Origin: Zygnema cylindricum
Taxonomy: Eukaryota; Streptophyta; Zygnematophyceae; Zygnematales; Zygnemataceae
Direction of reading: 5' to 3'
Assembly (NCBI GenBank): GCA_037447655.1
Contig: JBBHKE010000726.1
Coordinates: forward strand, 1 to 32,838
Length of the DNA stretch: 32,838 bases
Each line of letters begins with the position of its first letter. The first letter of the stretch is position 1. The position numbers and the translations under genes were made by a program. The notes beneath the pieces were generated by a model. That model made no database searches, was not told the DNA's origin, and worked only from the letters and a program-made list of their open reading frames with translations. Below are positions 1,582-32,838 of this stretch, one piece after another.

Positions 1582-1589
1582 TGGTCTAA

Positions 1590-3170: not shown

Positions 3171-3179
3171 TGATAGCTT

Positions 3180-8877: not shown

Positions 8878-9245
8878 AAGTACCGGGAGTGTAGAAATTA
8901 ATGGTTCTTTTAGTATTTTCAATGTCTGAACTTGTAAAAATAAAATTCAGAAAAGAAGCAGATGCAATCTGCCTCTAACTCCTCTCTTCATCTCCCACAC
9001 TTGTAGTAGTCACTGAAAGTTGGAGAGGGAGCTAGAGCCATGGCTGCCTATGCTATCCATAGAGAGATATGTAATAATTTTGGCAGGTTCACCAAAATGG
9101 TACTTGACGAACCCAGGATTTGATCTTAGAACCTATCGTTCGTCAAAGTCACCAGTAGCCGTTAGCTTTGTTCCATAACTTTAGGACTAGTTCTGAGGTA
9201 AATAGGGTTCAATGAATATTTAAAGATGTACTTGTAGAATTTTTT

Positions 9246-14025: not shown

Positions 14026-14040
14026 AGTTATGGGCCCACC
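14026..14040 (+). promoter_or_regulatory. Primer-binding site of element F
   Basis: AGTTATGGGCCCACC follows the LTR end. It is complementary to the anticodon arm of plant initiator tRNA-Met with one mismatch at the first base. The gag ATG is at 14030-14032. Confidence 0.82.
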
Positions 14041-15110
14041 CTCTAGAGTGCCCATCTTCAATGGAACTAGCTTCATATACTGGGAAAGTATGATGACTGG
14101 AGCTCTATGTGAGAAACGATTTGGGGAGATACTGAGTGGACGAGGTGGGGTCCATCAAGTCTTGACATCCCTCCAGGGTTTGGAGGAGGCAGATTCAAAT
14201 GGAAAGTAGATCCATCTCTAACGGAGGAGACAAAGGAAGGGGAGGTGGTGGACAAAAGAAAGGAGAAGGAGACGACCACACTAATAGCAATTGGTTCGGC
14301 ATTAATGTAACCTATTACGAGGAACAAGGAGAATGATACTGATACCTGGGACTTCAACAATATGGTGGCATAGCACTTCATTCTCCGCCATCTTACTCAA
14401 GGGCTTGCATCTCCTCATTTGCAGGTAGAGAGGGCATCCGATATTTAGGTGGCTCTTATAGAGATGAACCCAAGTGGTATGATTCAGCACAACTGTTGGG
14501 TGATAAAAAAATCAAAGAGTTTATATACAAAGGGGGGAAGATGATAGATTTTTGCAATGAGTTTGCTACGCTTTTCATGGAACTAGAGAGTGCTAGAAAA
14601 ATATTTGATGAAAAGGAAAAGGTTAACTATTTACTGATGAAGTAACCCTATGAGTTCAAGAACAAAGTCAACCGTGTGTAGGACTTGGCGCACTCAAGGT
14701 GGATATGGAATTCAGTTGTAGGGATGATTCTTGTTAAGGAGAATATGATTGAGATTTGAACGGGAGGAAAGAGTGGGCAAGCCTTAGTGGCTGGGATTGA
14801 TTGGAGGGAAAAGGATTATCGGAAACAGGTCAAAAATTATGGAGAGGGGGGGCAAAAAAAAATAAGACCGACGAGTTAGGACCAAGGACTCCCAAGGGTT
14901 TGTGCCATTTTTGTAAAAAACCAGGGCACTATATGGCGGAGTGCACTAAGCTAACCAAACTTCGCTTAAAGGAGGGGCAGATCGGTGGACCTCGAAGAGG
15001 AGAGAAAAAGAATCCTGTTACTCAGGTACACGAGGAGGAATTTGAGGACGAGGACGAGGAGCTCTTGCTAGATGAGGAGTTGGAGGCAAAGACCGAGGTC
15101 GAAATTCCTC
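14030..15110 (+). pseudogene. gag: Copia gag (element F)
   Basis: Gag from the ATG inside the primer-binding site (MGPPSRVPIFNGTSFIYW; the IFNG-YW pair is the usual copia gag entry). The frame breaks several times between 14150 and 14800, with recognisable blocks HFILRHLTQGLASPHLQ (~14370-14425) and KGGKMIDFCNEFATLFMELESARK (~14530-14600). The longest open piece starts near 14801 and carries an intact zinc knuckle CHFCKKPGHYMAEC (14903-14944), a basic stretch, and an acidic Glu/Asp-rich tail (EEEFEDEDEELLLDEELE) before protease. Very like E and D, but not functional. Confidence 0.88.
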
Positions 15111-16144
15111 GAAAGCAAAAATGTGCTTTTGGAGGTTTGAAAGGTGAAGGAGGTTGGATTGTGGATTCCGATGCCTCTATGCACATATGTAAGGATAAAC
15201 ACCTATTCACAAAGATGAGAAAGATTCCCACCGTAGAGATAGAGTATGGGGATGGGAGGGTAGTCACGACTACCATGGTAGGATCGATAGACATGAAAGT
15301 CTTAGTGGAGGGAAAGACATCCATAGTGACATTCTCTGATGTGTTGTTTATTCTAGAGTTAAACAAAAACCTCATCTCAACGTCTGTGTTAAATGATAAG
15401 GGTTTTGAGACTAGCATTAGGAAGGGAACCTTTACTGCTAGCTTTGATGAGAAAGTTTATTTCACTGCTGAAAAAGGTAGCCAAGGGATGTTTAGGCTGA
15501 TTTTAAGCAATGAAAAGAAGAAACTTTACTATGCTGGTGTTCATGATATAATGTTGTGGCATAAAAGGCTTGGACATGTGCATTTAGATAAGTTGAAAGA
15601 AATGAAAAAGTTGGGAAAAGTGGAAGGAATTTAGTTCGGAAAAAGTGAAAACCTTAGTGATTCTAGTGGTTGTGCTCAAGGTAAAGCACATAGATTACCC
15701 TTCCCAATGGAAGCCACTTATAAAGGGGAAAGGGTGTAAGACTTGGTACACATTGATATTTGGGGACCGGCCAAAGTGCCCTCACCCGGTGGTTTAAGGT
15801 TTATGATGACAATCACTGACGATTAGTCTCGATACTCTAGAGTGTATTTTTTGAAAAATAAATCAGAGGCCCCACTGGTTTTTAAGGAATATAAGGCATG
15901 GAGTGAGAAAGATCATGAAACCCCTATTAAGAGAATAAGGAGTGATAATGGGGGAGAGTATACCTCAAATCAGTTTGAGGATTTTATTAGAGAAGATAGA
16001 GTGCAACACCAAAAGACAATTCCTGAAAATCCGGAGCATAATGGTGTAGCCGAGAGGTTAAATAGAACTTTTAGTGATACTGCTACGAGAATGCTCTCAG
16101 ATAAGAAAATAGGAAGGAGATTTTGGGCCAAAACTATGAACTGT
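15111..16144 (+). pseudogene. pol: Copia protease and integrase (element F), 3' end lost
   Basis: The protease active site reads DSDAS (15164-15178), Gly changed to Asp (15170-15172), which should kill it. The protease then runs on in one open frame (KIPTVEIEYGDGRVVTTTMVGS ... LFILELNKNLISTS) into the pre-integrase block MFRLILSNEK and the integrase zinc domain WHKRLGHVHLDKLKEMKK (15555-15615). A CAG-to-TAG stop follows at 15632. The core continues with HIDIWGPAKVPSPGG, IRSDNGGEYTSNQFEDFIRED and NPEHNGVAERLNRT, so all three DDE residues are present, but further stops intervene near 15737 and 15824. At 16144, after TATGAACTGT, the sequence switches to minus-strand gypsy integrase. RT, RNase H and 3' LTR of F are missing. 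Confidence 0.9.
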
Positions 16145-17060
16145 TCCTGTAAATTCCCCATGGCGAGAGGCATCTCTTTGTGGAATATTTTGGCCTTGTC
16201 GACAATCAGTTTTAGACAGTCTGCTACCACTGCTTGGGTCAAGGGAGCCTTAGGCAGGATAGGATGTCGTCTAAATAAAATGAAGTAAGGGCTATAGGAG
16301 TGGAGGGAAGCTTGTCTGCTGAATCTGTATCCTATGGCAATCCAAGGCAACCTTCTATCCCACTCTCCCTAATCTTCTTCGACTTCATATTTTTGTAGTG
16401 ACCACTTCACTACCTCTACGCACCTTTCAGCTGAACTGTCGGCTTTAGGGTGGTCGCGACTGGAGAGTTAATGGTTGATGAGGCATTTCTCCAAAAGATG
16501 GGTAAATTCTTTGGAATATTCGGAGCCTCGGTCTGTCATAACCTCTGGTGGCGCCCCAAATTGTGACAGAACCCTTTGCAAAAAGGCATTTGCAATTGAC
16601 TTTGATTCTTTCTGGGACAAAACCACAAAGCCTATCCATTTCGAAAAATGTTTGATCATGACCAGAACGAAACAGTTCCCCCGTCTGCTGGTCGGAAGAG
16701 GTCCCAAAAGATCTAAAGACCATCGATAAAACATCTCTATGATAAAAAGAGAATGAAGCTCAATTCCACCCTTTTTGTCAAAAACTGCCTTCACTTTATC
16801 GCATGAAGAGCAAGCGTGTACAATTGGGCTCACTTGGGCCCGCAACTCATGCCACCAATAAGAGCCTGTCACAAGGGAAGTGGTCCGCTTTTGCCTGAAT
16901 TGTCCACATTGCAAATGGAGATGGGTGATATAGTTTCTCGATCGGAGGGGGGAGGAACCACTTTCCTCGTGTCCTCTGCCCATTTCTGGAGGAGAATGTT
17001 TTGGTCCCATTCATACGCCGCCATCCGGGTGTGCACTCGGGATAATTGAACTCCAGCCAA
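16145..17060 (-). pseudogene. pol: Gypsy integrase (element G)
   Basis: Minus-strand integrase. The zinc domain is seen as HLHLQCGQ ... SYWWHELRAQVSPIVHACSSCDKVK (~16930-16795). The core follows with MFYRWSLDLLGPLPTSRRGN (first Asp), VMTDRGSEYSKEFTHLLEK (second Asp, ~16530) and, after a frame break near 16467, a block with SSAERCVEVVKWSLQKYE (third acidic residue, ~16430-16380). The last part, YSPYFILFRRHPILPKAPLTQ (~16290-16230), matches the gypsy 'SPYELLYGRHPILP' region. It is truncated at 16145 by the junction with F, so the C-terminal tail is missing. No chromodomain is visible. Confidence 0.9.
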
Positions 17061-17339
17061 TTTGCGAAGCGAAGACCCTTTCGTATAGATTGTAGAACAT
17101 CAAAGTAGTTCTAGTTATCCTTCTGTCTGTCTCCTATAGGCGCCTGCCCCTCCACGTTTGTCACAAAAGTTTACAATTTCCACCCAGATCAGGGAAGCCA
17201 GATTAAGGCGGAAGATGCTCGAATGAGTCCCAAACTGATTTCCGGGTCCTCATTGTGCTAAGCAGTGGTAGAATCTAGAGTGGAGGGATTGGAATTTCGG
17301 CTAAGTCCGTCAACATTCTTGTGGATTTCCCCTGCATGG
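17061..17339 (-). pseudogene. RNase H-integrase spacer of element G
   Basis: A stretch between recognisable RNase H and the integrase zinc domain. Read on the minus strand it continues the gypsy connection (KSTRMLTDLAEIPIPPL, near 17320-17275) and then becomes too broken by stops to align. I see no separate gene in it. Confidence 0.6.
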
Positions 17340-18237
17340 TGAACTCTGCTGAATCATATTCCTGCAAGATAAGAACCTAGTTAGCGAGTTTGTCGATTAA
17401 CTTACTATTTTCTATGATCCATTTCACGAGTTGGTGGTCGGTAATAAGCGTGAAATGGACCCCATACAAATAGGGTCATATATGCTGAATTGCCCAAATA
17501 GCTGCGAGGAGTTCTCCATGGTAGGTGTTGTTATTTCCCTCCGCTCGGTTATATCTTCGGCTAGCGTAAGCCATTATATACTCACCTCGACGTCGTCTAC
17601 TTCTTTCAAAACTGCCCCCCTTCCAAACCTGCTCCAAAAAGTGTAAAGGTGGAAAGGTCCGAGGTGATTAGACATTTGAAACACGGGGTGTTGTTTCAGA
17701 GCATCCTTCAAGAATTGGAAGGCGATCTGTTGCTCTTTAGCCCAAAACCATTTTTGGTCCTTTCGCAATAACTGATTGAGGGGTTGGGCATGACTACTAA
17801 ACTCAAGGATATACCGCTGATAGTAGTTGGCCAAGCCTAGGAATGTGTGAAGGGCCGAGATGTCCTCTTCGGGTGGAAGAGCGTCAAGGGCTACCACCTT
17901 GTCCATATGGGGGCCCACTGTTCGAGGGGTCACTACATGTCCAAGGTAAATAATTTTTTGTACTCCAAAAATACCCTTGCCCAGGTGATATATCAAGCCC
18001 GCTGCTTGGAGGGCCCGAAGGACGAAGTGGACATGCTCCAAATGCTCCTCAAAGGTCTTGGAGATGTTAATGACATCATCAATATAACACAAGGTACAAT
18101 CCATTCCCTGGAGAGCTTCGGAGAGATAATCCCTTCAAATTCGGAAATCTACAATTTCCCAAACGAGTCCTTTTTAGGAGGGAGAACTCTCGGGGAAGCA
18201 AACCCATGGAGTCTTGTACTTTCTTGAACCAATCCGG
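17340..18237 (-). pseudogene. pol: Gypsy reverse transcriptase C-terminal part and RNase H (element G)
   Basis: The minus strand starts with the continuation of the RT fingers after solo LTR H (LHGFASPRVLPPKKDSF, the 'SPWASPVVLVKKKDG' region, ~18215-18165). It then jumps to the palm at EGIISEALQGMDCTLCYIDDVINISKTFEEHLEHV (YIDD codons 18086-18075). The stretch between, normally about 80-90 residues with the first catalytic Asp and the MPFGL block, is deleted. The thumb and connection follow in a long open frame (KIIYLGHVV, LHTFLGLANYYQRYI, PLNQLLRKDQKWFW). RNase H runs on with MAYASRRYNRAE ... HGELLAAIWAIQHI and YGVHFTLITDHQLVKWI (17590-17400). RT cannot be active without its deleted core. Confidence 0.9.
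18233..18237. repeat. Target-site duplication of solo LTR H, left copy (TCCGG)
   Basis: TCCGG directly precedes the LTR start TGCTTAAATT. The identical TCCGG follows the LTR end at 19242-19246. Confidence 0.92.
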
Positions 18238-19241
18238 TGCTTAAATTACTAGATTTATAAGGTGTTTTCTTGGTCTAAAAAGATTTGTAAAATGGGGAAT
18301 AAAAAGGGCAGAAAGCCTGCCTCCACCTCCTCCCTCTAGCCACCATATTTGTTGTAGTCACTGAAGGAAAAAGAGGGTGGTTGAGCTATTACTTTCCTAG
18401 TTCAACATAAAAGACTAAAGAGTGACTTATGTCACTCTCAACAAAAGGTTGAGTCCAGGAAGACTCGAACCACCAGCAAACGAGGCGTAGCCGTCAGCTC
18501 TAACCGGTCTATCGTAGGAGTTTGTTAACATACATAGGGTGTGATATTTATTTGAACTCTGTTTCGATCCTAAATCCGATTAACGAATTGAAAAATGAAA
18601 AAACATATAACTGAATAATAAATAGTGCAAATATTTTCTTGTACGAAACAAATGAAATGGACATTTGTTTCGACGGCTAATATTAAATGTTTGTTTGTAA
18701 TCCAACGGCACATATCGCTCCCGAAATCCTAGAATGGTCACATTGGCGGTTTTTAACGTGGCATGACTTGGCAACACGTGGAGAGATAACATTCGGTTGT
18801 GGGAATTCTGGAGAACAGAAGGATGAGTTAAAAGTGGACACCCGTCTACACAATGGCCTTGTCGTACACATGCCGTACAAAAAGTACATCGGCCATAATA
18901 CACTTTTGTACTCTAGAGTCGTTTGATTAGTTCGTACGTCAGTAGATAAGGGTTCTGAGAGGGGTTTAGGACTTATAGAATTTGGTAGGTAAGCACCTCT
19001 CTCCCTTAGAGAGTTTTGTATAAACTTGGCATCTTTGCCACCTCATAACTAATTTGGTTGGTTGGCCGTTTTCAGTGATTCTTTTTGTTCCGGACTCAAC
19101 AAAGTCCAGACTGCACAAAGGTGTAGCCAAACTATGAATTTCTTTGCTTGGGCAGCAGTGGTTGTGAGTGAATGTGGGTTAGTTAAAAACTATCTAGAGG
19201 CTTCCTGAATTTTGTAGTCTAATGGAGGACACATAATTGCA
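18238..19241 (+). mobile_element. Solo LTR H inserted in the gypsy reverse transcriptase
   Basis: A 1004-bp LTR (TGCTTAAATT ... ATAATTGCA) of the same family as the LTRs of element A, with no internal region and a perfect 5-bp duplication TCCGG. It splits the RT of G between VEAG and the fingers. It holds the palindrome AGAGTGAC-TTAT-GTCACTCT (18419-18438), the best antisense tRNA-like module in the window (18448-18515), the inverted repeat GAAACAAAT/ATTTGTTTC (18645-18671), a G-box (18775-18780), GTAC words (18860-18935) and TATAAAC (19019-19025). Confidence 0.93.
18448..18515 (-). other. tRNA-like module (A box and B box) antisense within LTR H
   Basis: On the minus strand GACCGGTTAGAGC (18509-18497) resembles a tRNA A box and D arm. 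GGTTCGAGTC (18471-18462) resembles a tRNA B box and T loop. Their spacing is about 25 bases. Downstream GACTC could end an acceptor-like region. Base pairing of the arms is only partial, so I do not call a functional tRNA. The same module is in the other LTRs of the window. Confidence 0.6.
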
Positions 19242-19246
19242 TCCGG
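19242..19246. repeat. Target-site duplication of solo LTR H, right copy (TCCGG)
   Basis: Identical to 18233-18237 and directly after the LTR end ATTGCA. Confidence 0.92.
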
Positions 19247-19700
19247 CTTCCACTAAAGTTTGGACTTTAGCCGTGATAAAATCCTTCTCTTTGAAGCTGA
19301 GAGGATACTGCTTTTACGATATAGTAGTTGTTTCGTCAATTGAATCGATTCGGAAAGTTAACATGATTTTCTGACCATAAGAATACCTACTTCTCTTTGG
19401 CCGATAGTTTCGAGAGAAAGACCTTTTGCTGAGGGTCCAACTCCTCCCCCAAGGTCGAATCCATTTTCCTAGTTTCGAAAGCCGTCCAGGCTTCCGGTGG
19501 TCTTCCCCAAAGGTTGATGTCGGATTCCAACCCTACCTGTGGGATGGCCTCTACCCCTCAGGCTAAAACGCTACTGCTGACAACTTCCACTAAGCTGTCC
19601 CCATCTGAGCCGCCGCTCCCCTCTATTGGGAAAACCCGCGCGTGTGGAATGTGAAATTTTCTCATTCTCCTTTCTCTTTTCCCCTTAAGTTGCAAAGTTG
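19242..19700 (-). pseudogene. pol: Gypsy reverse transcriptase N-terminal part (element G)
   Basis: Minus strand. A pre-RT segment PPEAWTAFETRKMDSTLGEELDPQQKVFLSKLSAKEK (~19505-19395) resembles the loosely conserved region before gypsy RT. It ends with YPLSFKEKDFITAKVQTLVEAG (~19310-19245), matching the RT entry 'YRLSxxE ... IxxLLxAGxI'. The next residues lie beyond solo LTR H, at 18237 and leftwards. Stops at about 19395, 19535 and 19585 and frame changes are present. Upstream, 19750-19700 is the unassigned end of the methyltransferase region. Confidence 0.75.
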
Positions 19701-19749
19701 TTTGCATTGCCGATAATTGAGGAGCTTGAAGGTAAATAGCCCAAGACTT

Positions 19750-20389
19750 TGGGGACTAGAGACTGGAAAAGGCAAAAGCATGCTTGAGCACCCATGTGAT
19801 TGCATTTAAATCCATATTTTGCCCTATTAAGCTCCACCTCTAGAGGTTTGAAATACCTGGTTTAGCCGTAGTGTTCTTATGGAATCCCATTGCTTATTCT
19901 TGTTCTGCGACCATTGGTGTTGTCCAGATTCCCGCTTTGCTGTCAAAGATCATTCCTGCCGCTCCTTTTCGATATGCGTGGCTGTGAGGAAAGGAAGCCA
20001 AGGTTTGGAGTGCTCTTTGTGGGATTCTTGGTCTGTTGCACCGAAAGAAAAAGGAGCGGTCTGGTTTTGTCACAGGTGTTGCCATCTGTCTTTCCCCAAG
20101 GATTTGCTCCATTAAATTCTAAGGGTTGGGGATCTGCTTCTGTAAGAGTTGCCCGAGGACGTGGAGTGGGATTATATTGGTCGAATATGCCCTCACTCGG
20201 TGCGCTCAAGATCCCATCTATGCGGCATCGAAAGCCAAGGGAGCTCCTAAAATCATAGTCACGTGATACCAACTGTTAACAACATGTTTCCATCGATAAT
20301 CTCTCGGGTGGACATTCTCCAAAACATACCACTTTGGTGTGTCTTAGAGTTGCTGTATCCACGAGATTAATTAGATCATCTAAAAAAAT
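19750..20389 (-). pseudogene. C5 DNA methyltransferase, C-terminal half (element G)
   Basis: Minus-strand continuation of the methyltransferase that starts at 27130. In order: TPKWYVLENVHPRDYRWKH, which contains the ENV motif (VI; codons 20319-20311). Next, in the same frame, comes MILGAPLAFDAA ending at 20221, followed by MGS..AHRVRAYSTN (20217-20176, with two stops), the region ahead of the target-recognition segment. RALQTLASFPHSHAY lies at ~20020-19970 in another frame. The C-terminal motif AMGFHKNTT ... WSLIGQNMDLNAITWVL (19885-19765) corresponds to the 'MGFP ... LGRSWSVPVI' end of DNMT3-type enzymes. With the other half the domain would be about 330 codons, a normal catalytic-domain size. 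Several stops make it dead. The assignment rests on motif order; a profile search would settle it. Confidence 0.8.
20385..20389. repeat. Target-site duplication of element E, left copy (AAAAT)
   Basis: AAAAT precedes the LTR start TGTAGAAATA. The identical AAAAT follows the 3' LTR at 26758-26762. Confidence 0.88.
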
Positions 20390-20477
20390 TGTAGAAATAA
20401 AATGTTCTTTTAACATTTTCTAGGTTTTCTTGAAAAGAGGTACTCAATAACTCAATTCTCTATTTTCGTTACTCTAT

Positions 20478-20518
<41 letters not shown>

Positions 20519-21525
20519 CAAAAACACGCCATGGTAGTCGCCTTATTTTGAATTGGCAGATTCCAATAGAGGGTATTTTTATCAAAATGATTGTAGAAAT
20601 TAAATGTTCTTTTAATATTTTCTAGGTTTTCTTGAAAAGAGGTTATCAATAATTTAATAATGTATATTCGTTAGACTCTAGAGAGAGAGAGAGAGAGAAT
20701 CAAAAACACGCCATGGCTGTCGCCTTATTTAGAATTGGCAGATTGCAATAGAGGGTATTTTTATCAAAATATTTCCCTAGAAAGGATTTGAACCAGATAC
20801 CTACGGTCTACGAATAGCACAACGCCTTAACCATTAAGGCGCTATGAAACGATACACATATAATGTTTAATTCTTACTTAAATTTGACACGTTGGCTAAA
20901 ATCTAACCAAATTGACTAAGAGGCGCATATAAAACAATTCATGCATGAACATGAATCCAAACCATGTAAATTAAATTAATCCGACGGCCGTCGTTGCACC
21001 CGCCACTTCGAATGAGCTTTTGGCGGCCTTTGGAGATTGCGTCACGCAATGCCACATGGCGCTACATTATTGAATGCCCTGGAAGATGGGAAAAGGAACA
21101 ATGGCTCCTGATTTGACAAGTGTAACCTTGAAGGCCATGTTGTACAATGGTTGTACAATAAGTACATTGGCCACTGTATTTTCTTGTACTATATAGTGTT
21201 CCTATTGGGCTAGGGTTTAGTAGTAGTTATACGTGAGTAGGCAGACCAGGACTTAGGTAAATTTAGGTACCTCTCTCCAACAGAGCTTGTTAATATAAAG
21301 GTCATCTTTGACTTGCCATAACTTACTACTTAGGGGAGCAAATTTAGAGATTCTTTTTGCTATTGACTCACGGGTGTCTTATCTTCATAGGGGTAAAGGC
21401 GTTCAGAGTATTTTTGTCTGCCAAGGTGGCTGTTATTCTTGTCGAAACACAATCGGGTCAGGGTTATCCTAGGGGCTTCGTGTTATATGCCCATTCTGAG
21501 GACCTATGGAGGTCTCATAATTGCA
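20390..21525 (+). repeat. 5' LTR of element E, with internal tandem duplication
   Basis: 1136 bp, TGTAGAAATA ... ATAATTGCA. Its first ~202 bases (20390-20591) are repeated at 20592-20772. The 3' LTR has the unit once, so the duplication came after insertion. Both units carry a GA microsatellite. The antisense tRNA-like module is at about 20777-20850 (B-box-like 20794-20784, A-box-like 20836-20824). GTAC words cluster at 21140-21190, and a TATA box TATAAAG lies at 21294-21300. Confidence 0.92.
20479..20516 (+). repeat. (GA)n microsatellite in the LTR of E
   Basis: About 18 uninterrupted GA units, against about 8 in the second copy of the duplicated segment (20681-20698) and fewer in the 3' LTR (25935-25947). 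Length therefore varies between copies of the same LTR. Confidence 0.9.
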
Positions 21526-21540
21526 CGTTATGGGCCCACC
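21526..21540 (+). promoter_or_regulatory. Primer-binding site of element E
   Basis: CGTTATGGGCCCACC follows the LTR end. It is complementary to the initiator tRNA-Met anticodon arm over 14 of 15 bases. The gag ATG is at 21530-21532. Confidence 0.82.
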
Positions 21541-22610
21541 CTCTAGGGTGCCCATCATTAATGGAACTGACTTCATATATTGGGAGAGTATGATGACAAA
21601 AGCTCTATGTGAGAAAAGGTTTTGGGGAATAGTAAGTGGACAGGTGAGGCGTCCATCCAATCTTGGCATCCCTCCAGGGTTTAGAGGAAGCAAATTCACT
21701 AGAGATGCAAATCCCTCTCCGACGGAGGAGACAAGCGAATGGGAGATGGTGAACAAAATAAATGAGAAAGAGACGATCACACGGATAACAATCCGTTTGA
21801 CATTCATGTCACCTATTCTAAGGAGCAAGGAGAATGATACTGATACTTACGACTATAACAATATGGCGGCAAAGCACTTCATCCTCTGCCATCTTACTCA
21901 AAGGCTTGCATCTCGTCAGTTGCAAGTACAGATGGCATCGGATCTTTGGGTGGCTCTTATAGAGATGTCTCGAAGTGGTACGATTCAACAACAAGAGTTA
22001 CCTAATTAGAAATAAATACATATGTATACAAAGGGGGGAAGATGTTGGATTTTTGTAAGCTCGCAACACTTTTCATGGAGCTAGAGAGTTCACGAAAAGT
22101 TGAAACTGAAAAGGAAAAGGTTTAGTGCTTGCTCGTGAATTTACCAGATGAGTTCGAAAATATAGTAAACCCGGACTTGCCAGACTCAAGGTGGATATGT
22201 AGTTCAGTGGTAGGGATGAATCTTGTTCGAGAGAATAAAATTGAGATCCAAATGGGAGGAAAGAGTGGGAAAGCCTTAGCAATCGGGACTGATTAGAGGA
22301 AGAAGAATTCCAAAAATCTGGTCGGAAACTATAGAGGGGGAGGGCAAAAAAATCAGAGAGATGAGTTCGGACCGAGGGCTCCCAATGGATTGTGTCATTT
22401 TTGTAAAAACCAGGGCAATATATGGCTGAGTGTACCAAGCTAACCGAACTTGGGTTAAAGGAGGGGCAGATCAGTGGATCTCTAAGAGGAATGAAAAAGG
22501 CTCTTGTGACACAAGTACATGAAGAGGAATCCGATGATGAGGACGATGAGCTTTTGTTGGATGAGGAGTTGGAGGCGAAGATTGAGGTTGAAATTCCTCG
22601 AAAGCATTAA
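21530..22610 (+). pseudogene. gag: Copia gag (element E)
   Basis: Starts MGPPSRVPIINGTDFIYWESMMTKALCEKRFWGIVSGQ from the ATG inside the primer-binding site. It then has NMAAKHFILCHLTQRLASRQLQVQMASDLWVALIEM (~21860-21968) and a stop at 22007-22009. After frame changes come KGGKMLDFCKLATLFMELESSRKVETEKEKV (~22035-22120) and LPDEFENIVN. The zinc knuckle (22393-22433) has lost one base and its His is changed (CHFCKNQG...), so it no longer reads CX2CX4HX4C. The acidic tail EEESDDEDDELLLDEELE follows at 22525-22575. Not functional. Confidence 0.9.
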
Positions 22611-24050
22611 TGTGCTTTAACAGGATTAAAAGATGAAGGAGGTTGGATTGTGGATTCAGGTGCTTCCATGCACATGTGTAAGGACAAACACCTTTTCACT
22701 ATGATGAAAAAGATACCCACCGTAGAGATAGAGTATGGGGATGAGAGGGTAGTCACCACTATTTTGGTAAGATCGAAAGATCTGAAATTCTTAGTGGAAG
22801 GAAAGACATCTATAGTGATATTCTTTGATGTCTTGTTTATTCAAGACTAAAATAAAAACCTCATCTCATCGTCTATGTTAGATGATAAGGGTTTTGAGAG
22901 TAGCACTAGGAAGGGAACCTTTACTGCTAGTTTTGAAGAGGAAGTGTATTTCACTACTGAAAAAGGTAGCCAAGGGATGTTTAGGCTGATTTTAAGCAAT
23001 AAAAAATTAACTTTTATAATGCTAGAGTTCATGATATTATGTTGTGGCATAAGAGGATTGGACATGTGCATTTAGATAAGTTGAAAAAAATGAAAAAGAT
23101 GGGAATAGTGGAAAGAATTCAGTTTGGAGAAAGTGAAAACCTAAGTGACTCTAGTGGGTGTGCTCAAGGTAAACGACACAAGTTACCCTTCCAAAAGGAA
23201 GCCACTTATAAAGGAGAAAAGGTTTTAGACTTGGTACACACTGATATTTGGGGACCGGCCAAAGTGCCTTCACCCGGGGGAAAGAGGTTTATGATGACAA
23301 TCACTGTTGATTGGTCTCGGTATTCTAGAGTGTATTTTTTGAAAATTATACCAAAGGCCCCACATATATTTAATTAATATATAGCGTGGAGTGAGAAACA
23401 ACATGAAATTGCCATTAAGAGAGTAAGAAGACATAATGGGGGAGAGTGTGCCTCCAATCATTGTGAGGATTTTCTTAGAGAAGGTGGAGTGCAACACCAA
23501 AAGACAGTTCTTGAAAATCATGAGCAAAATGGTGTAGCCAAGAGTTTAAATAGGACACTAAGTGATAGTGCTATAAGTATGTTGTCGGATAAGAAGATAG
23601 GAAAGAGATTCTAGGCAGAAGCTATGAACTGTGCTAATTATCTCAAGAATAGAGTTCTTACTTCGGCATTGAAAAGCCAAACTCCTTATGAGAGATGGGC
23701 CTACCAAAATACCAGATGTATCACACTTAAAGGTTTTCGGTAGTGAAGTGTTCAGTCTAGACACAGATGGGTCAAATCGGAAGTTAGATCCAAAAGGAAA
23801 ATCAGGATATCTGCTAGGATATGATGAAGATGTAAAATGATATAGAATCTATGATCTTAAGAGAGAAGATATAACATTAGTGAAGCATCTAGTGGTTATG
23901 GATGAAAGGAAATCTATAGATCCCTTTAAGCATACACAAACCGTAAAAATCAGATTTGAGTCAAAAAATTCTGATGACTTTGAGCTTCCTGACTATCCTC
24001 GCTTTTGAGAAGATGATCATCTTGCAGGTACAAATAAGACCAAGGATGAT
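22611..24050 (+). pseudogene. pol: Copia protease and integrase (element E)
   Basis: The protease carries an intact WIVDSGASMHMCKDKH (DSGAS 22653-22667), then KIPTVEIEYGDERVVTT and a stop near 22848. The pre-integrase MFRLILSN (22979-23002) and the zinc domain WHKRIGHVHLDKLKKMKK ... CAQGKRHKLPF lead to the core HTDIWGPAKVPSPGGKRFMMTI (23237-23302). The second Asp is lost (RRHNGGE for RSDNGGE, ~23430). The E-containing block is changed too (QNGVAKSLNRT). The C-terminal region has KPDVSHLKVFGSEVFSLD-like and VKHLVVMDERKSIDPFK (~23880-23928) blocks in several frames. Catalysis is impossible as it stands. Confidence 0.9.
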
Positions 24051-25830
24051 TCAGTCGTGGAACCCCTAGTGCCAACTCGAACCGAAGCGGAAGATGTGGT
24101 GGAATTACACTCGGAATCAACGAATAGGGGAGAAGTCGAAACTGTTCGAAAGAATCCACGAGAGCCATCCATTTCGTCATCAAAGTTTGAGAATAGAAGG
24201 AGAAGCAGCAAAAGAATGCAAGAGAAACAAGTTAACAATAAGGTAACCAAACTGTCTCATCCCGATGAACCCCACACTTATGGTGAAGCAATGAACTATC
24301 CTGAGAGGAACCAGTGGAAGAGAACCATTAATGAGGAGATGGCTTTGATTATGGCAACCGATACGTGGGATTTGGTGGACTCTCCCCTTGACAGGAAGCT
24401 AATTTGGTGTAAGTGGGTGTTTAAGTTGAAACTCAACCCGGATAACACCATTAAGCGTTAAAAGGCTCGATTAGTGGCGAAAGGATTTACCCAAAAAGAG
24501 GGAATTGACTACGAGGAGACATTTGCCCCAGTCGTCATGCTCCCCTCCGTCATGATACTTCTCAGTTTGGCAGCTGCAGAAGACAAGGAAGTACATCAAA
24601 TGGACATCATGACAGCCTTCCTACATGGAGAGTCGGAGGAGGAGATCTTTATGCGACAACCCGAAGGATTCGTGGAGCAAGTGGAGGAGAGCAAGGTATG
24701 CCAATTAATCAAATCTTAGTATGGCCTGAAATAGGCGCCCCACCTATGGAATAACAAGCTTGATGAGTTTCTTACAGGGGTGGGATACATCCGGATTAGC
24801 TAAGATCACTCAATTTATTTTTTTGAAGATGAAGAAGGAATTATATTTATTGCAATTTATGTTGATGATTTGCTTGTTTTAAGTAAATCTATGGAAAATT
24901 GCTAAGTTTAAAACGTATCTAAAAGGTTAATTCGAGATGAAAGATATGGGAAAAAGAAGATATATTTTAGGAATTCACGTAGAGAGAGACAGAGATAGAA
25001 AGATAATCAGATTAACTCAAAACGAGGACATTGGAAACATGTTAGAATGATTCCAAATGGACAAGGCTAATAGTTGTATCACTCCTATGGAACTAAAGAA
25101 GGGAGTGTGGAAAAGGAAGTTATAATCTTGGATATGAGATAGGTCGGGATGAGAAAAGATTTATGCAGACCATCCTATATAGAAAAGTAGTGGGCAGCCT
25201 AATATGTTTCATGAATTGTACCCGTCCGGACATAGCCGCAACTGTAGGAGTACTAAGTAGGAGTCTGAATGCTCCCACTAAGAAAGATTGGGAGGCAGCT
25301 AAGAGAGTCTTGAGATATCTCATAGGGACTAGAGATCTATGGTTGCATTTGGGTGGGAACAATACTAACATCAACACTTGGAGTGATGCTAGCTATGGGG
25401 ATGCTTATATAAGGAGATGCATGTCTGCGTATGTATTCTATATGGGTGATAGAGCTTGTTGTTCGAGCAGCAAGCAGCAAAAGGTCATTACTCAGTCCAC
25501 CATGGAGGCTGAGTACATGGCCTCTTGCTCTGCTATAAAAGAATTAATGTGGGTCAAGTCCTTGCTTGGTGAGTTTGGTCATCTTAAGAGTGGTGTCTAG
25601 AAAGTGTTTTGTCTGCCATTGCTATATCTGCCAATCCTAAACACAACATCAAAGCGAAACATATGGACATTAGACTTAGCTTTGTTAGGGAGAAGGTAGA
25701 AGACAAAATAATCAGTTTAGAGTATAAACCAGATAGTGAAATGGTTGCAGATATGATGACCAAACTTGTACATTCCCCAAAGTTATTATTTTTCAGGGAG
25801 AAGTTTGGTCTTAAATTGAAGAGTGACTAG
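24051..25830 (+). pseudogene. pol: Copia reverse transcriptase and RNase H (element E)
   Basis: The RT linker contains basic RRRSSKRMQ and LSHPDEPHTYGEAMNYPERNQWKRTIN (24250-24335). RT blocks follow: CKWVFKLKLNPDNTIK (24406-24453), AKGFTQKEGIDYEETFAPVV, HQMDIMTAFLHGESEEEIFMRQPEGFVEQ (24594-24680), and YVDD intact at 24858-24869. Stops include TAG for Leu in SLYG (24717) and TAG for Gln after GLK (24731). RNase H is nearly whole: VVGSLICFMNCTRPDIAATVGVLSRSLNAPTKKDWEAAKRV (25187-25310), WSDASYGD, SSKQQKVITQSTMEAEYMASCSA and MDIRLSFVREKVEDKI, ending at 25830. Confidence 0.92.
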
Positions 25831-25843
25831 AAAAATAAGGGAG
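25829..25843 (+). other. Polypurine tract of element E
   Basis: AGAAAAATAAGGGAG directly precedes the 3' LTR; purine-rich like the equivalent in A. Confidence 0.8.
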
Positions 25844-26757
25844 TATAGAAATAAAAGGTTCTTTTAATATTTTCTAGGTTTTTTTGTAAAGAGGTAATCA
25901 ATAATTCACTTCTCAATTTTAGTTATACTCTAGACAAAGAGAGAGAGAATCAAAGACACGCCATGGCTGCCGCCTTATTAGCTTTATTTAGAATTGGCAG
26001 ATTGCAGTAGAGGGTATTTTTATCAAAATATTTCCCTAGAAAGGACTTGAACCTGATACCTACGGGCTACGTAGAGCCGAACGCCTTAACCATTAAAGCG
26101 ATACGAAACGATACACGGATGATGTTTCATTTGTACTTAAATTTGACACGTTGGCTAAAATCTAAACAAATTGACTAAAAGGCGCATATAAAACAATTCA
26201 TGCATGAACATGAATCCAAACCATGTAAATTAATTTGATCCGACAGCCGTCGTTGCAGTTGGAATGAGCTTTTGGCGGCCTTTGGAGATAGCGTCACGCG
26301 ATGCCACATGGCGCTACATTATTGGATGCCGTGGAAGATGGGAGAAGGAACCATGGCTCTCGATTTGACAGGTGTCACCTTGAAGGCCAGGTTGTATAAT
26401 GGTTGTAGAATAAGTACATTGGCCACTGTACTTTTCCACTACTATATAGTGTTCCTATTGGGCTAGGGTTTAGTAGTAGTTATACGTGAGTAGGCAGACC
26501 GGGCCTTAGGCAAATTTAGGTACCTCTCTCTACAAGGGTTTGTAAATAAAGGTCATCTTTGACCTACCCACTGCCTGGGAAGCATTCAGAGATTTCATGC
26601 TATAGACTCACAGGGTCTTATGTATAGGGGCGAGGTCAAAGTATTTTTTCTCCCAGAGTGGCAGTTATTCTTGTCGAAACACAAACGGATTAGGGTTATC
26701 CTAGGGGCTTTGTGTGAGTTGCTTTGTCTGAGAACCTATGAAAGTCTCAAAATTGCA
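25844..26757 (+). repeat. 3' LTR of element E
   Basis: 914 bp, starting TATAGAAATA (terminal TG mutated to TA) and ending AATTGCA. It lacks the 202-bp duplication of the 5' LTR. The antisense tRNA-like module has B-box-like 26053-26043 and A-box-like 26095-26082. The TATA region is weakened (GTAAATAAAGG near 26540). Confidence 0.92.
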
Positions 26758-26762
26758 AAAAT
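26758..26762. repeat. Target-site duplication of element E, right copy (AAAAT)
   Basis: Identical to 20385-20389 and directly after the LTR terminus GCA. Confidence 0.88.
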
Positions 26763-27130
26763 CATATGCTTCAACTTTCCTGATTTCCTTTTCCTTGTCT
26801 TGCAAGGGATTATCCTTGACAAGCCATCCTGCCACTATCAAGTCCACTCTCTTTAGGCTTATTAGATGAAGTGTCATGATGTTTTAAACGTTCTTGGGAA
26901 GACTCCGGTGATCGTTTAAGAATGCGGACATTAGAAGCTGCAAAGGGTAGAGTTGGTGGAGTTGGTGGAGGCGCTGTTTGGTGAATTCGCGGGCCTCGGG
27001 AGAGATCGCCATTGCTGAATAGGTTTCCACCTTATATCCCACCTTTAAAATTGCTTACAAATTAGAATTGATTCCTAAAAACAGTGATATGATCCGGAGT
27101 CTTGGATCGGGAATTCTTAATGACACCACT
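26758..27130 (-). pseudogene. C5 DNA methyltransferase, N-terminal half (element G)
   Basis: Minus strand, downstream of the protease. Motif I (S-adenosylmethionine binding) is readable as IISLFLGINSNL (27096-27061), close to the DNMT3-type 'VLSLFDGIATGL' but with Asp lost, followed by a stop and ILKVGYKVETYSAM. Next come ISPEAREFTKQRLHQLHQLYPLQL (~27010-26940) and KRVDLIVAGW (26849-26820), the lead-in to motif IV. The catalytic PCQ lies across a one-base frame slip: TGT (Cys, 26821-26819) and CAA (Gln) are in the next frame, giving CQG, a stop, then SLARQGKG. Element E interrupts it at 26758 and it resumes at 20389. Motif order I-IV-VI-VIII is unpermuted, unlike plant DRM enzymes. Substrate would be cytosine in DNA. 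It is now dead. Confidence 0.82.
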
Positions 27131-27382
27131 TGTCTGTTAAATTTGTCATTTATAGGTATAATCTCCAAAGATTTTGATCGAAGGCGTGAAATGGTTTCCT
27201 TGGGTTATAGAGCTGAATTTGTCTAATCCACTTCCCGCTGAATTGTGGCTATTCCTAATAACATTTCTTGATATTCCTCTTCCCACCTCTTGGAAATAGG
27301 GAATTGCTAAATCTTATCCGCTACATCCGAGAAGATGGCAAAAATTTCCGACAAAGAGGAGGTTGCATACACAAGGTAACAC
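27131..27382 (-). pseudogene. Protease-methyltransferase linker (element G)
   Basis: On the minus strand a mostly readable stretch (RWEEEYQEMLLGIATIQREVD, then stops, then PKETISRLRSKSLEIIPINDKFNRQVVSLRIPDPRL) leads directly in frame into methyltransferase motif I. I do not recognise a family. It may be the N-terminal extension of the methyltransferase. Confidence 0.55.
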
Positions 27383-28050
27383 CTAGATAAACGGACATCT
27401 CTTCCCCCGATTCCATAAATCCAAATGAACCACCACCTTTGTTCTTTTCGAGTCACTGGGGTCCTGAACAGTTAACTGCTCCTTCCACACATTTAACCCG
27501 AAGTTCAGCCGGATCCATGTGGCCATACCCAACAGAATTTCAAATTGCGTACCTTCAACCACTAAGAATGGGAGCTCAATTTGGACTCGTTGACCTGCGT
27601 CATCGGAAAATTCAATCTCTATGACGTTGATTATCCGATGGACTGGCTGACTTCCGCTGCTGACCGTACTCAAGCAAATGCTGCTCGGGCAAATTTTTGG
27701 CCAGAGTTCCTTTTGCATTTGCTATAAAGCCGAAACGGTGATGAGGTTTGGGAGCGCCCCGGTGTTGACCAGTACATCTTCATACACGCCGTATCTGTTC
27801 AACTTGAAATTTTCTTTCTGGTTCAAGATTAGAGCCACTGACAACGCCTTATAATCCCTCTCCATCATAGGGGTTTTTGGTTCTGCAGACAAAAAGACGA
27901 TGATTGGCGGATTTCCCTTGGCACCCTTCTCCCTTCCCGAGTGTATCTCCTCTCCCAGTGCCTGAATGAGGATCTCTTCCGGTAAATTGTGGGATGAGGC
28001 CAGAGTTTAGACATGAGTGAGAGTGTAGGGCATAAGGTGCCTTACTAACA
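27383..28050 (-). pseudogene. pol: Gypsy aspartic protease (element G)
   Basis: On the minus strand an open region runs LPEEILIQALGEEIHSG ... PMMERDYKALSVALILNQKENFKLNRYGVYEDVLVNTGALPNLI. VNTGA is the retroviral aspartic protease motif V-DTG-A with Asp changed to Asn (codon 27766-27764), so the enzyme is inactive. After a TAG near 27722 it continues in the 27718-27383 frame with IEIEFSDDAGQRVQIELPFLVVEGTQFEILLGMATWIRLN; FEILLGMATWI is the usual second motif (ILGxD/LLGxxxL). It sits between gag and the methyltransferase. Confidence 0.82.
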
Positions 28051-28618
28051 TAAAAACCGGCTTAGAAAAAAGAGGTTGATTTCTTGGTGATGAAATAGGG
28101 GAATCGAGTTTTTACGGTCTTTCTTGCCTCTTCTCGATGTCCTCACTTTCGCAGCCCGAATCTAATAAGAAGGGGTCCCGAAGTGTTGTTGTCAGGGCGT
28201 TCGGCCATATATTTTTCGAACCACTCCTGGTTACCCTATCTCTCTCTCTCCAGTCACTCTTTCTCCCACAGTTGTTTCTCTGTTTTGTAACTTTAAAAAC
28301 CAGTAGGGAGTTGTTGTTTCTTATGGAGAGATGGCAGGTGAGTTTGATCCCGAGGACGATGTCGTTGTTCACGATGACTGCCTTGGTAGTGAAGGATAAA
28401 AGTCCACTTACATTTCGATTGTGGCCATTTTGACACATTTTCTACTTGTCCATTCTTTGCTCCGAGGTAGAATTGCGGAGTTGTCGGTGGCTATCTCCCA
28501 CCCCAACATTCCAAGCTCCAGACACGAAAGTGCGTGCATGGTGGGCATTTCGGGGTTCAAAATCCCAACCCATTAAGTCAACATCATTTTCACCCGCACT
28601 GCCTTGAAGATCAAGCTC
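28051..28618 (-). pseudogene. Gag-protease region of element G, unassigned
   Basis: Between the protease and solo LTR K the minus strand holds a 108-codon open stretch (28438-28112) with SFTTKAVIVNNDIVLGIKL and FLLDSGCESEDI, and a broken stretch upstream (LELGMLGWEIATDNSAI, ~28530). FLLDSGCES resembles an aspartic-protease DSG motif, but the context is too eroded to decide whether this is the true protease start, the end of gag or a chance match. It is collinear with the rest of G. No independent gene is supported. Confidence 0.5.
28614..28618. repeat. Target-site duplication of solo LTR K, left copy (AGCTC)
   Basis: AGCTC precedes the LTR start TGTTGAAATT; an identical copy is at 29657-29661. 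Confidence 0.92.
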
Positions 28619-29656
28619 TGTTGAAATTTATAGATTTCTAGAGTATTTTCTAGGTTTAAATATGTCTTTATAAAAAGGAAAGAAAAAAGACGGGCAGCCT
28701 GCCTCCACCTCCGCTCTCTAACTCCCATACTTGTTGTAGTCACTGAAGGTAAGAGAGAGAGGTTGATCCATGGCTGCCTTAGTTCAACAGACAGCTATTT
28801 TTAGTAGGTTACTAAAAATATACTTGACGGACGAGCGGTTTGATCCCGGTACCTGCGGTTCGTCAAGTTGACCGGTAGCGGTCAGCTTTATCCTAATAGA
28901 CTAGGACCAATGCTAAGTACTATGGTATGTGATAGATATATATTTAGTTTGCGTGACTAAAATTCATTTAACTAGAACTTTATACGGCGTACATAGATTC
29001 AGTTTTATAAAGTACGTCGTACGACGCTAATTCGAAACGGATACCTCGCATTTTATTTCGACATCGGAACAAATATCACGCAAGCATTTATTACGGCTAA
29101 GATTGCGTTTGGCACAAAATCCAACGGCGCACATCATCGCCGAAATCCCGGAGTGGTCATTTTGGCGTTTTGTGACGTGGCATGACCTGGAGCCACGTGG
29201 AGAGATGACATTCGGTCATAGGAATTCCGAGGAATGTACGGACGAGTGAAAAGCGGACACGCGTCCACTTAATAGCCTTGTCGTACATAGGCCGTACAAA
29301 AGGTACATCGGCAGTAGTACTTTTGTGTACGATACAGTAATCTGATTGGTCCGTACTTCAGTAGATAGGAGTTATTAGAGAGAATCAGGACTTAGAAAAT
29401 TTAGGTAGGTAGTCATCTCTCCCTTTGAGAGTTTGTACAAATTGGCATTTTTACTTCCTCATAACTTATCGCCTGGTTGGCCATTTTCAGTGATTCTTTT
29501 TGCTACGGACTCAAGGGAGTCCAAGCTACACAGGGGTGCAGTCAAATTGTCAGTTTGCCTTCTGAGGCAGAAGTGGTTGTGGCTTAAAGTGGGTTAGTTA
29601 AATACTATCTAGAGGCTTCCTGTATTCTGTAGTCCAATGGAGGACACAGAATTGCA
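28619..29656 (+). mobile_element. Solo LTR K inserted in the gypsy gag region
   Basis: A 1038-bp LTR (TGTTGAAATT ... GAATTGCA) with a perfect AGCTC duplication and no internal sequence. It carries an antisense tRNA-like module (~28837-28899), a G-box at 29194-29199, and six GTAC words within 74 bases (29283-29356) next to a CCAAT element on the minus strand (ATTGG, 29345-29349). Its 3' part resembles A and H most, its 5' part the B/F type. Confidence 0.93.
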
Positions 29657-29661: not shown

Positions 29662-30454
29662 CGCACGCTTTGTAACAACTCTTGTTTTTGTTTCTGCAGT
29701 CTTTGTGCTGCACTGAGAGGAGCAGTCGGTATGAAGATCCTAAGGGGAGGGCAACCAATTTTGGTGCCATCGCGGCCAATTGCTTACTTTGCTGCTGAAT
29801 GATTTTTTCCGGTGTAAGTTTAGGTGGAATAACAGGGGTCCGGTCAGGTTCCTCCGGTGACAACACACAACGCCTCGAAGGCTAAAGGAGTTGAAATGGG
29901 TAAGGGTGTACAACAGTTTCCCCTTCTCCATTGAACAGGGCGAACTGCATCATTTCTTTCGGGACTCCATTCTTGCGGAAACATTGTTCTTCTTGATGGC
30001 CCATGAAGCCACATGCTACACACTTGGAGCCTTTGGTAGTATATTGACATTCATTGAGCTCATTAGAGATTTGGGCATTATCAAATTTGAGAAGTTTAAT
30101 TTGCCCCCGTTGAGATTAAGACATTTTTGCGATTTTTGCCCAAGGAGTAGGGCGGCAAGTTTCCTTGTTAACTAGTGCTTTCCCGTCCCCCCCTTCTCCT
30201 TGTTTTCATTCCAACTAATTCCAAGTCCTCTCCGCACGTTCCTTTTCAAATTATTTATGCTTAATGGCGAGCTCCAGTTTGAGTTTCTTGGGGTACCCTT
30301 TCCCCCTATGTCTAGTTTGCTGGCAATTGAGAAAGTTGTAGAGAAAAACCATATCATCCTATGCCCCCATTGCAGGTTCTAACCCGTTGTTGAACATCTA
30401 TTTCCCTTTAAGCTTCTGCAAAGCTTGAAGTTCAGTTTTTTCCTCCTTAAACAA
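29657..30454 (-). pseudogene. gag: Gypsy gag with zinc knuckle (element G)
   Basis: Minus strand. After an eroded capsid part (LKLELAIKHK and EKERAERTWN, ~30270-30225) comes KLLKFDNAQISNELNECQYTTKGSKCVACGFMGHQEEQCFRKNGVPKEM. The CVACGFMGHQEEQC segment (codons 30022-29981) is a CX2CX4HX4C nucleocapsid zinc knuckle. A Pro/Gln-rich tail follows (PVIPPKLTPEKIIQQQSKQLAAMAP, ~29840-29765). Stops occur at about 30140 and 29883. The knuckle sequence differs from the copia CHFCKKPGHYMAEC, as expected for a gypsy gag. The right end is cut by element J at 30454 and the left by solo LTR K. Confidence 0.78.
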
Positions 30455-31341
30455 TGTTGATTCTGTTGAAAAGAGGTTATTAATAGTTCACTTCCCTATT
30501 TTAGTTTGAAAGAGAGTGAGGATCAAAGGCACGCCATGGCTGCGGCCATATTTAGAAAGGGCAGTTTTTGAAGTAGAGGATATTCTACTAAAATGTTGTC
30601 TAAGTCTAGATTTGAACCTGCGACCTCTAGAGACTCTATAGCCAAACTCCTTAACCATTAAGGCGTTACGAAACGATACACGTGACGGGTTTCATAATAT
30701 ATAAACATTAACGCAACAGCTAATTAACAGCAAACTAACCAAAAGGAGCAATTCCTGCATGTACGCGAATCTGAACCGTGTAAAATATGTTTTTATCGAA
30801 CGACCGACATTATAGCCGCCACGCGAAGTGAGCTTTTGGCGGCATACGGAGATAGAGTCACGCGGTGCCACATGGCGCCACATTATTTGATACCGCAGAA
30901 GATGGGAGGAGGAACCATGGCTTCCGATTTGACAAGTGTCACCTTGTAAACTTTGTCGTACAATGGTCGTACAATAAGTACATCGCCCATTGTACCTTCT
31001 TGTAATATATAGTGTTCCTATTGAACTAGGGTTTAGTAGTAGGTAGTCGTGAGTAAGCAAACCGAGACTTAGTAATATTTAGGTACCTCTCACTCTAAGA
31101 GAGCTTGTAACTATAAAGGTAATATTTGACCAGCCATAATTTACTGCTCATGGGAGCAAATTCAATGATTTTTTTTGCGTTTGACTCAGGGGAGTCTTAT
31201 CGTCACGGGGGTCAGAGTGGTCAAAATATTTGTGTGCCTGGGCGGCACTTATTCAACGGGAAAGTAGAAGGGGCAAATATTTTCCTAGAGGCTTTACATA
31301 GGCTGCTCATTCCGTGGGTCAATGGAGACCACAAAATTTCA
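30455..31341 (+). repeat. 5' LTR of element J
   Basis: About 887 bp, TGTTGATTCT ... AAATTTCA. The first ~25 bases are shorter than in E, so the exact start is less certain. The antisense tRNA-like module has B-box-like 30618-30608 and A-box-like 30661-30648. GTAC words lie at 30957-30985; the TATA box TATAAAG at 31112-31118. Confidence 0.85.
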
Positions 31342-31356
31342 GGTTATGGGCCCACC
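31342..31356 (+). promoter_or_regulatory. Primer-binding site of element J (perfect)
   Basis: GGTTATGGGCCCACC follows the LTR end with no spacer, fully complementary over 15 bases to the anticodon arm of plant initiator tRNA-Met. The gag start codon ATG (31346-31348) pairs with the CAU anticodon. Confidence 0.87.
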
Positions 31357-32519
31357 CTCTAGGGTACCCATATTTGATGGATCAGACTTTCTTTATTGGG
31401 AAATAATGATGGAGGGAGAACAATTTGAGAAGCATCTATGGGGCATAGTGTCTGGACAAATTCGATGCCCACCTCCACTTGGGTTTGGAGGGACACGTTT
31501 TTCTGGCACCTCTGCCTCTACAGTTGGTAGAACAGCTGCCACCATCACCGAGGATGAAGATGAGGAAGGAGAGGAGATTGTCATGGAAGGAGAAAAGGAA
31601 GGAGTAGCAACTCAAGTGACACCATTGCCAAAGGCGATACTGGCAGCAGCACCACCAAAAACGGCGACAAGGGTTCAAACCGAAAGATCAGAGTATAAAA
31701 AGTGGAACTACAAAGACAAGGTTGCTAAGCTTTTAATTCTTAAAAGTGTAGCAAAGGGCATTGCCATTCCCCTTATGCATGTCAAATCTTCATCTCAGAT
31801 TTGGATATCACTAGTTAACAAATATAAGAGTGGATCATTGTAGCATCAACAGTTGGCCGAAAAATAAGATTGCAGCTTATACTTATAAAGGAGGAAGTAT
31901 GAATAATTATTGCAATGGTTTAGGAGCATTATTTGGAGAGTTGGAGAGTGCAGGTAACTCATGGTCCGAGAGACAAAGAGTCAACACATTAATGATGAAA
32001 CTATCTGAAGTGTATGAGAATATCATTAACAGATTGCATGACATGGGAGATAGCAATTGGAATTGGGATGACACAGTGGGAATGATTTTAGTGAAAGAAA
32101 GCACCATAGAGCTTAGGAGAGGGAGTCTAAGTGTTCAAGCATTGTCTGCAGGAGTTGATTGGCGGAAGCATGATGAGGAGAGAGGGAAAGATCCTTATCG
32201 AAACTTTGGTGGAAGAGGACAAGGAGGTGGCAGATTTGATAGACAGGGGAGAGGAACTTCTCGAGGAGGATTATGTCACTTCTGCAAGAAACCAGGACAC
32301 CATATGGCAGATTGTGTCAAACTTGCAAATCTTCGACTGAAAGATGGTCAAGGAACCTCAAAGGATGGAGGAAAGAAAAAGGCTTTCGTGACTCAAGTTC
32401 ATGATGAAGAAGTGGAAGGAAAAACTGAACCAGAAGAGGAGCTTGAGGAGCTTCTTCTTAATCCGAAAAACATTGAAAAACATGTCGACATTCCACGGAG
32501 ACAAAAGTGTGCTTTCGGA
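31346..32519 (+). pseudogene. gag: Copia gag (element J), nearly intact
   Basis: Starts MGPPSRVPIFDGSDFLYWEIMMEG from the ATG inside the primer-binding site. I chose this over the upstream in-frame ATG at 31322, which lies in the LTR. The first part runs to a TAG at 31841-31843, where a Gln is likely original. A frame change follows near 31865 and the second frame continues to protease. The capsid-like core includes YKDKVAKLLILKSVAKGIAIPLMHVKSSSQIWISLVNKY and MNNYCNGLGALFGELESAG. A Gly/Arg-rich stretch (GGRGQGGGRFDRQGRGTSRGG) precedes the zinc knuckle CHFCKKPGHHMADC (32274-32315, CX2CX4HX4C intact) and an acidic tail (EPEEELEELLL). Confidence 0.92.
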
Positions 32520-32838
32520 GGTAAGAGGGATCCACCCGAGGATGGGTGGATCATAGACTCAGGGGCTTCAATGCATATGTGCAAAGATAAGCGGTGGTTC
32601 ACTAAACTGAGAAAGATCCCAACAGTTGAGATAGAGTACGGAGATGGTAGAGTAGAAACCACAAGTCTTGTTGGAACTGTTGACTTGAAGGTTCTAGTTG
32701 ATGGAAAGGCCTCAATTATGACACTCTCAGACGTTCTTTACATTCCATAGCTTAGCAAGAACCTAGTCTCAACAGTTGTTTTAGATGAAAAGGAGTTTGA
32801 AACAGGAACTAGGAAAGGAATCTTCACAGCAAGCTTTG
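32520..32838 (+). pseudogene. pol: Copia protease (element J), partial
   Basis: Same frame as gag. The active site WIIDSGASMHMCKDK (DSGAS 32556-32570) is intact. KIPTVEIEYGDGRVETTSLVGTVDLKVLVDGKASIMTLSDVLYIP follows and stops at a TAG (32748-32750), again where relatives have a Gln or Glu codon. The frame then continues LSKNLVSTVVLDEKEFETGTRKGIFTAS to the window end, just before the pre-integrase block. Confidence 0.92.

Follow-up and report, generated by a model that had tools for sequence, protein, structure and literature searches.

Hosts usually fight transposons with DNA methylation, so it is a puzzle that some elements retain, under selection, their own methylase. This puzzle is raised by a stretch of 32,838 nucleotides (the window; contig C542, positions 1 to 32838, in a source genome of 353 Mb and 2689 contigs), in which a preliminary description had noted traces of a cytosine-5 (C5) DNA methyltransferase inside a Ty3/gypsy retrotransposon. 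Did this element carry its own DNA methyltransferase (DNMT), and what might such an enzyme do for it? Comparison with related sequences in the same genome confirms that the window holds a decayed Ty3/gypsy element on the minus strand, at about 30472-16147, that once carried a C5 methyltransferase, and we regard its classification as a DNMT-bearing gypsy element as close to certain.

The C5 methyltransferase motifs were found where the preliminary description had placed them, in two minus-strand blocks that flank an inserted element (element E). Motif I reads ISLFLGI near 27090, and VDLIVAGW occupies 26847-26824, with CQG one frame over at 26821-26813. On the other side of element E, YVLENV lies just inside 20389 and is followed by FDAA..GS.AHRVRAYSTN, and the last motif, MGFHKNTT..LIGQNMDLNAITW, lies near 19880-19800. 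When the broken halves were searched on their own, PF00145 gave no match at E<=1 (for three short pieces, none at E<=10), NCBIfam and a plasmid DNA search gave no match, and nothing relevant was returned from PDB, from a protein database, or from viral contigs. In a frame-tolerant alignment, DNMT3A by itself scored close to noise (at most 49, at 26992, against 46 for a reversed-protein control). A profile of four sequences (DNMT3A, DNMT3B, and two linearised DRMs) scores highest on the minus strand at 26977 (44.8, on the motif I side) and 19786 (36.5, at the last motif), which stand in the expected order, but the top plus-strand score of 39.2 is above the second of these, and the profile result is suggestive only.

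The negative Pfam, NCBIfam, and PDB searches and the near-noise comparison with DNMT3A would suit chance motifs in unrelated sequence, a reading to which we give virtually no credence, as it is refuted by relatives that carry the domain at the same place. The open frame of one such relative, locus L094, aligns by tblastn to both halves, with residues 1-182 matching 27306-26758 (52%, E 6e-48) and residues 182-539 matching 20388-19354 (57%, E 9e-112), and the two alignments join at residue 182 across element E. A DNA search of the genome with the C-terminal half gave 42 places, namely the window, 39 more copies at 75-80%, and two additional short pieces, with scoring that covered 40 of 550 candidates. 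Because same-genome relatives with open frames align to both halves, the identity of the window methyltransferase is settled. The window copy is a member of an old, decayed branch; its seven nearest fetched copies all contain stops within the methylase domain. The parts of the window element and the insertions within it are as follows.

29960-30472, minus strand: gag remnant (tblastn with the first open frame of L094, 61%, E 5e-52).
27401-28129, minus strand: aspartic protease remnant (tblastn with the L094 protease frame, 71% over 243 residues, E 1e-111).
27307-27309, minus strand: in-frame TAG, then CAA TTC, at the protease/methylase boundary; candidate leaky stop (shared by all 16 recognised copies).
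26758-27306, minus strand: N-terminal half of the methylase region with motifs I and IV, a frameshift, and stops (52% to L094 residues 1-182, E 6e-48).
20390-26757, plus strand: element E, a copia-type long terminal repeat (LTR) element within the methylase (junction sequences, repeats about 85% alike, copia-like frames).
19750-20388, minus strand: C-terminal half of the methylase, carrying motifs VI and VIII as well as the last one (within the 57% match to L094, E 9e-112).
19242-19749, minus strand: linker and start of the reverse transcriptase (RT) (tblastn with L094).
18245-19241, strand unassigned: further insertion within the RT, resembling copia-type repeats at other places in the window (L094 alignment interrupted here; repeats I10, I18, and I19).
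16147-18244, minus strand: remnant of RT, RNase H, and integrase (tblastn with L094, 67-80% in pieces of at least 30 residues; 67-82% over the whole of RT to integrase).

Element E is bounded by a target duplication, AAAAT, at 20385-20389 and 26758-26762. The C-terminal PHD part known from relatives was not found in the window, with no tblastn match to L094 beyond 16147. Around and inside the gypsy element lie several copia-type elements, nested and accompanied by LTR-like pieces, in both orientations, at 1-16146, 18245-19241, 20390-26757, 28596-29656, and 30500-32838.

What the intact element looked like can be read from relatives with open frames. Of 782 first-look candidates in a PF00145 profile search of the genome, 123 places were scored, and each of them exceeds the curated cut-off; some of these may be host-gene exons, and several sit within very long open frames. 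L094 (contig C1374) has the protease in one frame, a single stop, and then 1520 residues that comprise methylase, RT, RNase H, and integrase, while L090 (C1344) is a single frame of 2395 residues from a zinc-knuckle gag through a PHD finger. PF00145 is significant in L094, L090, and L093 (7e-14, 1.6e-12, and 2e-12, with 7e-14 for L094), so that the Pfam check proposed in the preliminary description succeeds for these relatives and fails for the window's broken halves. Protease, RT, RNase H, and rve integrase follow each other in gypsy order in L094 and L090 (Pfam on pieces) and in the window (tblastn); the integrase of the relatives is an rve domain with an H2C2 zinc finger, and the protease is weak in Pfam, with Asp_protease_2 under its curated cut-off in both L094 (E 2e-4) and L090 (E 1e-3). 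The full gene order is gag, protease, methylase, RT, RNase H, integrase, and PHD-type finger, with the methylase sharing one frame with RT and integrase. The younger copies that had been anticipated in the source genome, with protease, methylase, RT, RNase H, and integrase, are thus present. No related copy without the methylase domain was seen, but copies were fetched through that domain, and the Pfam scans of relatives showed no tyrosine recombinase, although no search was aimed at one.

At least three lineages, A (that of the window), B, and C, hold the methylase at the same place. For lineage C (L084 on C412 and L101 on C1100), identity to A is 51-61% across two copies of the methylase and 80% for the RT of one copy; for lineage B, three copies give 41-45% for the methylase and 53-55% for the RT, the A and B methylases sharing 42% over 327 residues. 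Identities to A thus drop in step for methylase and RT, and A and B methylases form one clade (100/100) in a tree. From these comparisons, a single capture followed by common descent would be the simplest reading of the A, B, and C methylases. The position between protease and RT and the likeness to DNMT3, both proposed in the preliminary description, are borne out: relatives carry the domain at the same place, and DNMT3A is the top solved structure for A (1e-14) and B (1e-10), well ahead of HhaI and DRM. In the same search of solved structures with the A and B methylases, no DNMT1 or CMT appeared at E<=1, and DNMT2 reached E 0.1 at best. This result bears on whether the enzyme might modify the element's RNA, a role proposed for a different retrotransposon class (PMC5890265, as described there); with DNMT3A and its kin as the nearest structures and DNMT2 so far behind, we consider such a role very improbable. 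A DRM-type origin had been judged unlikely from the motif order, and the order I, IV, VI, VIII, and last motif holds in the window and in the relatives; it is unpermuted, and the DRM-type permutation (VI-X before I-IV) was not encountered in them. Phage methylase families also match (phrog_116, 6e-22 and 7e-17).

The methylase domain is under purifying selection. In lineage A, dN/dS (the ratio of nonsynonymous to synonymous substitution) of the methylase is 0.11-0.37 in 19 of 21 pairs among 7 copies, the other 2 pairs being identical, and that of the RT is 0.07-0.32 in 10 of 21 pairs, the remaining 11, which involve two more distant copies, being saturated; in lineage B, 7 of 10 methylase pairs are saturated at synonymous sites (dN 0.11-0.16), and dN/dS is 0.18, 0.18, and 0.32 in the remaining three, all of these values coming from a sample limited to copies with uninterrupted domains.

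How the selected domain is produced may depend on a stop codon. All 16 recognised copies of A and C, that of the window included, have TAG at the same protease/methylase codon. The survey behind this count covered 36 loci and the window with a tolerant pattern for post-stop residues; the duplicate loci L083 and L087 were removed, and copies that are decayed or uncovered at the site are uncounted. CAA comes next in 15 of the 16, mostly as CAA UUC. The lineage B copy L090 has no stop at this position. UAG-CAA begins the tobacco-mosaic-type readthrough context. Judged by its conservation and context, the UAG looks like a programmed readthrough site and is a candidate leaky stop.

At the other end of the polyprotein, a PHD finger after the integrase scores over the Pfam cut-off in the B copies L090, L092, L096, L097, and L099 and in the A copy L093 (24.8 versus 24 bits), and the lineage C copy L101 has a matching tail, 48% identical to that of A. 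The finger, at the C terminus of Pol, may read histones, in an element that also encodes a DNA methylase.

The ends of the elements are unusual in form. Three lineage B copies (C1344, C829, and C1915) have complete split direct repeats in the arrangement A1-body-B1-A2-B2, with A pairs 99.4-100% alike, ends TGTC..GACA, a B1-A2 junction GACA-GC-TGTC, and 4-bp target duplications (TTGG, AAGG, and CCCT). The 3' side, B1-A2-B2, was also found in C1407 (lineage B) and in C2216 and C1042 (lineage A), the last B repeat being partial in the lineage A copies; split repeats were not found in other fetched copies. Some copies are young, because the A repeats within single copies are 97.7-100% alike. Ordinary identical LTRs at both ends were considered and set aside, the readable copies showing split repeats A..B-A-B with TG..CA termini.

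When these features are placed together, we consider it probable that this is a DNMT-bearing gypsy family in which a readthrough-delivered methylase marks the element's complementary DNA (cDNA) and a PHD finger reads target chromatin. In lineages A and C, the methylase would be made only upon UAG readthrough, and the readthrough product would bring it into the particle together with RT and integrase, where it would methylate the new double-stranded cDNA. Fresh insertions would then arrive premarked like silent host chromatin and hence be tolerated, and the PHD finger on the integrase would read histone H3 at the target. That the role of the methylase is to methylate the element's own cDNA is, as a separate claim, a tentative proposal that falls somewhat short of probable. 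The preliminary description had likewise suggested methylation of the element's own copies or a tuning of host silencing, both of which stay hypothetical. More doubtful still is the most detailed version, in which a single Pol would combine an epigenetic writer and reader, with cDNA methylated before integration, the PHD finger choosing chromatin, a leaky UAG setting the dose in two of the three lineages, and a single methylase acquisition kept under selection in a streptophyte alga, one lineage having changed PCQ to ECQ.

Besides the restricted dN/dS sample, several observations weigh against this explanation. The first concerns the residue before the catalytic cysteine, surveyed in 36 loci (duplicates L083, L086, and L087 dropped; three chance matches elsewhere excluded) with a search that required CQG, so that copies without it are uncounted. 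Where CQG was recognised, this residue is proline (PCQG) in all 13 A or C copies and glutamate (ECQG) in all 13 lineage B copies; a stop immediately precedes the catalytic motif in two A copies and one B copy. The lineage B glutamate may lower or abolish methylase activity, and it could be speculated that the domain is kept for nucleic-acid binding or polyprotein folding and not for catalysis, above all in lineage B. We think this unlikely, as the catalytic cysteine, ENV or ENI, and AHRVR are kept in many lineage B copies and PCQG is invariant in the A and C copies with the motif.

The second concerns the marks left on old copies. With L094 as the reference, C-to-T changes in the window copy affect 26% of CG (114/441), 26% of CHG (153/598), and 18% of CHH (280/1540) sites, and the reversed polarity gives 13%, 15%, and 13%; three further references (L093, L107, and L109) give 23-25% for CG, 25-26% for CHG, and 16-18% for CHH. 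This excess suggests past CG and CHG methylation of old copies. It would suit a methylase that acts after integration on host chromatin or sibling copies instead of cDNA, damping activity so that the host survives, an option also raised in the published account of a similar element (PMC5890265). However, host enzymes alone would give the same C-to-T bias, which also counts against taking it for a trace of cDNA marking, and a domain encoded alongside RT and integrase in Pol would be well placed to act within the particle; methylation of host or sibling DNA is a minority view, about as improbable as a non-catalytic domain.

The remaining points concern kinship and structure. In the tree, which is midpoint rooted, uses 23 of 68 full-length viral rows, and was built without lineage C, DNMT1, CMT, or host DNMT3 rows, A and B lie on a long branch outside DNMT3 and DRM, and DNMT3 groups with DRM. 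Among the termini, C1374 holds extra sequence between two B repeats (L094 8410-10000 with L125), C1112 has an A-type repeat in inverted orientation (L095 7503-8252), and the stretch of C544 that was read shows no repeat pair. In lineage A the PHD finger is weak, with L094 under the cut-off and L093 over it.

Methylase-bearing retroelements have been reported from two host groups (PMC5890265, as described there), and the report from a charophyte alga mentioned in the preliminary description corresponds to the closest known system, KnitGypsy-Dnmt3 of Klebsormidium nitens. On the published description, this element shares with the present ones the gypsy domain set, an unpermuted DNMT3-type domain in Pol, and purifying selection on that domain, and its figure legend gives a DIRS-like A-coding-B-A-B arrangement with gypsy domains such as was found here in C1344, C829, and C1915 (PMC5890265). 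Unlike the present elements, it is described in a main text without the word PHD, neither a conserved stop ahead of the domain nor an ECQ lineage was seen mentioned there, though the figure may show more, and its copies are said to be fewer (PMC5890265). The present elements read as the KnitGypsy-Dnmt3 kind with features unmentioned in its published text, and that these features are unreported elsewhere is a weakly based negative. SymbioDIRS-Dnmt3 of Symbiodinium, according to the same description, likewise has DNMT3 in Pol and A-coding-B-A-B repeats, but it has a tyrosine recombinase, whereas the present elements have an rve integrase and 4-bp target duplications (PMC5890265). Plant Ty3/gypsy lineages in the Neumann survey share the gypsy polyprotein domains and target duplications of 4 or 5 bp, and the main text of that survey does not contain the words methyltransferase or PHD (PMC6317226). 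Streptophyte DNMT3 genes share the unpermuted DNMT3-type domain; as described, they are host genes with DUF3444 and, unlike the elements here, not retroelements (PMC6453930).

Another streptophyte genome rich in such copies, young ones among them, would allow a direct test of whether new copies are methylated before the host acts, and the PHD finger, the ECQ lineage, and the context of the UAG are each separately open to simple experiment. The lineage had been called a plant gypsy lineage; gypsy stands, and the photosynthetic host is probably a streptophyte alga, more narrowly a zygnematophyte, and not a land plant. For Zygnema cf. cylindricum SAG 698-1a_XF, a genome of 359.8 Mb in 3587 scaffolds with 29.8% Copia and 5.9% Gypsy has been published, in a paper whose main text does not contain the words DNMT3 or retrotransposon (PMC11096116). 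In the source genome, no LEAFY domain candidate was found, a result that says little, as control genomes gave none either. The 27 GRAS matches on 12 contigs and the 88 chlorophyll-binding matches point to the genome of a zygnematophyte or a land plant, and chlorophyll-binding protein genes form tandem arrays on C519, C2590, and C1116.

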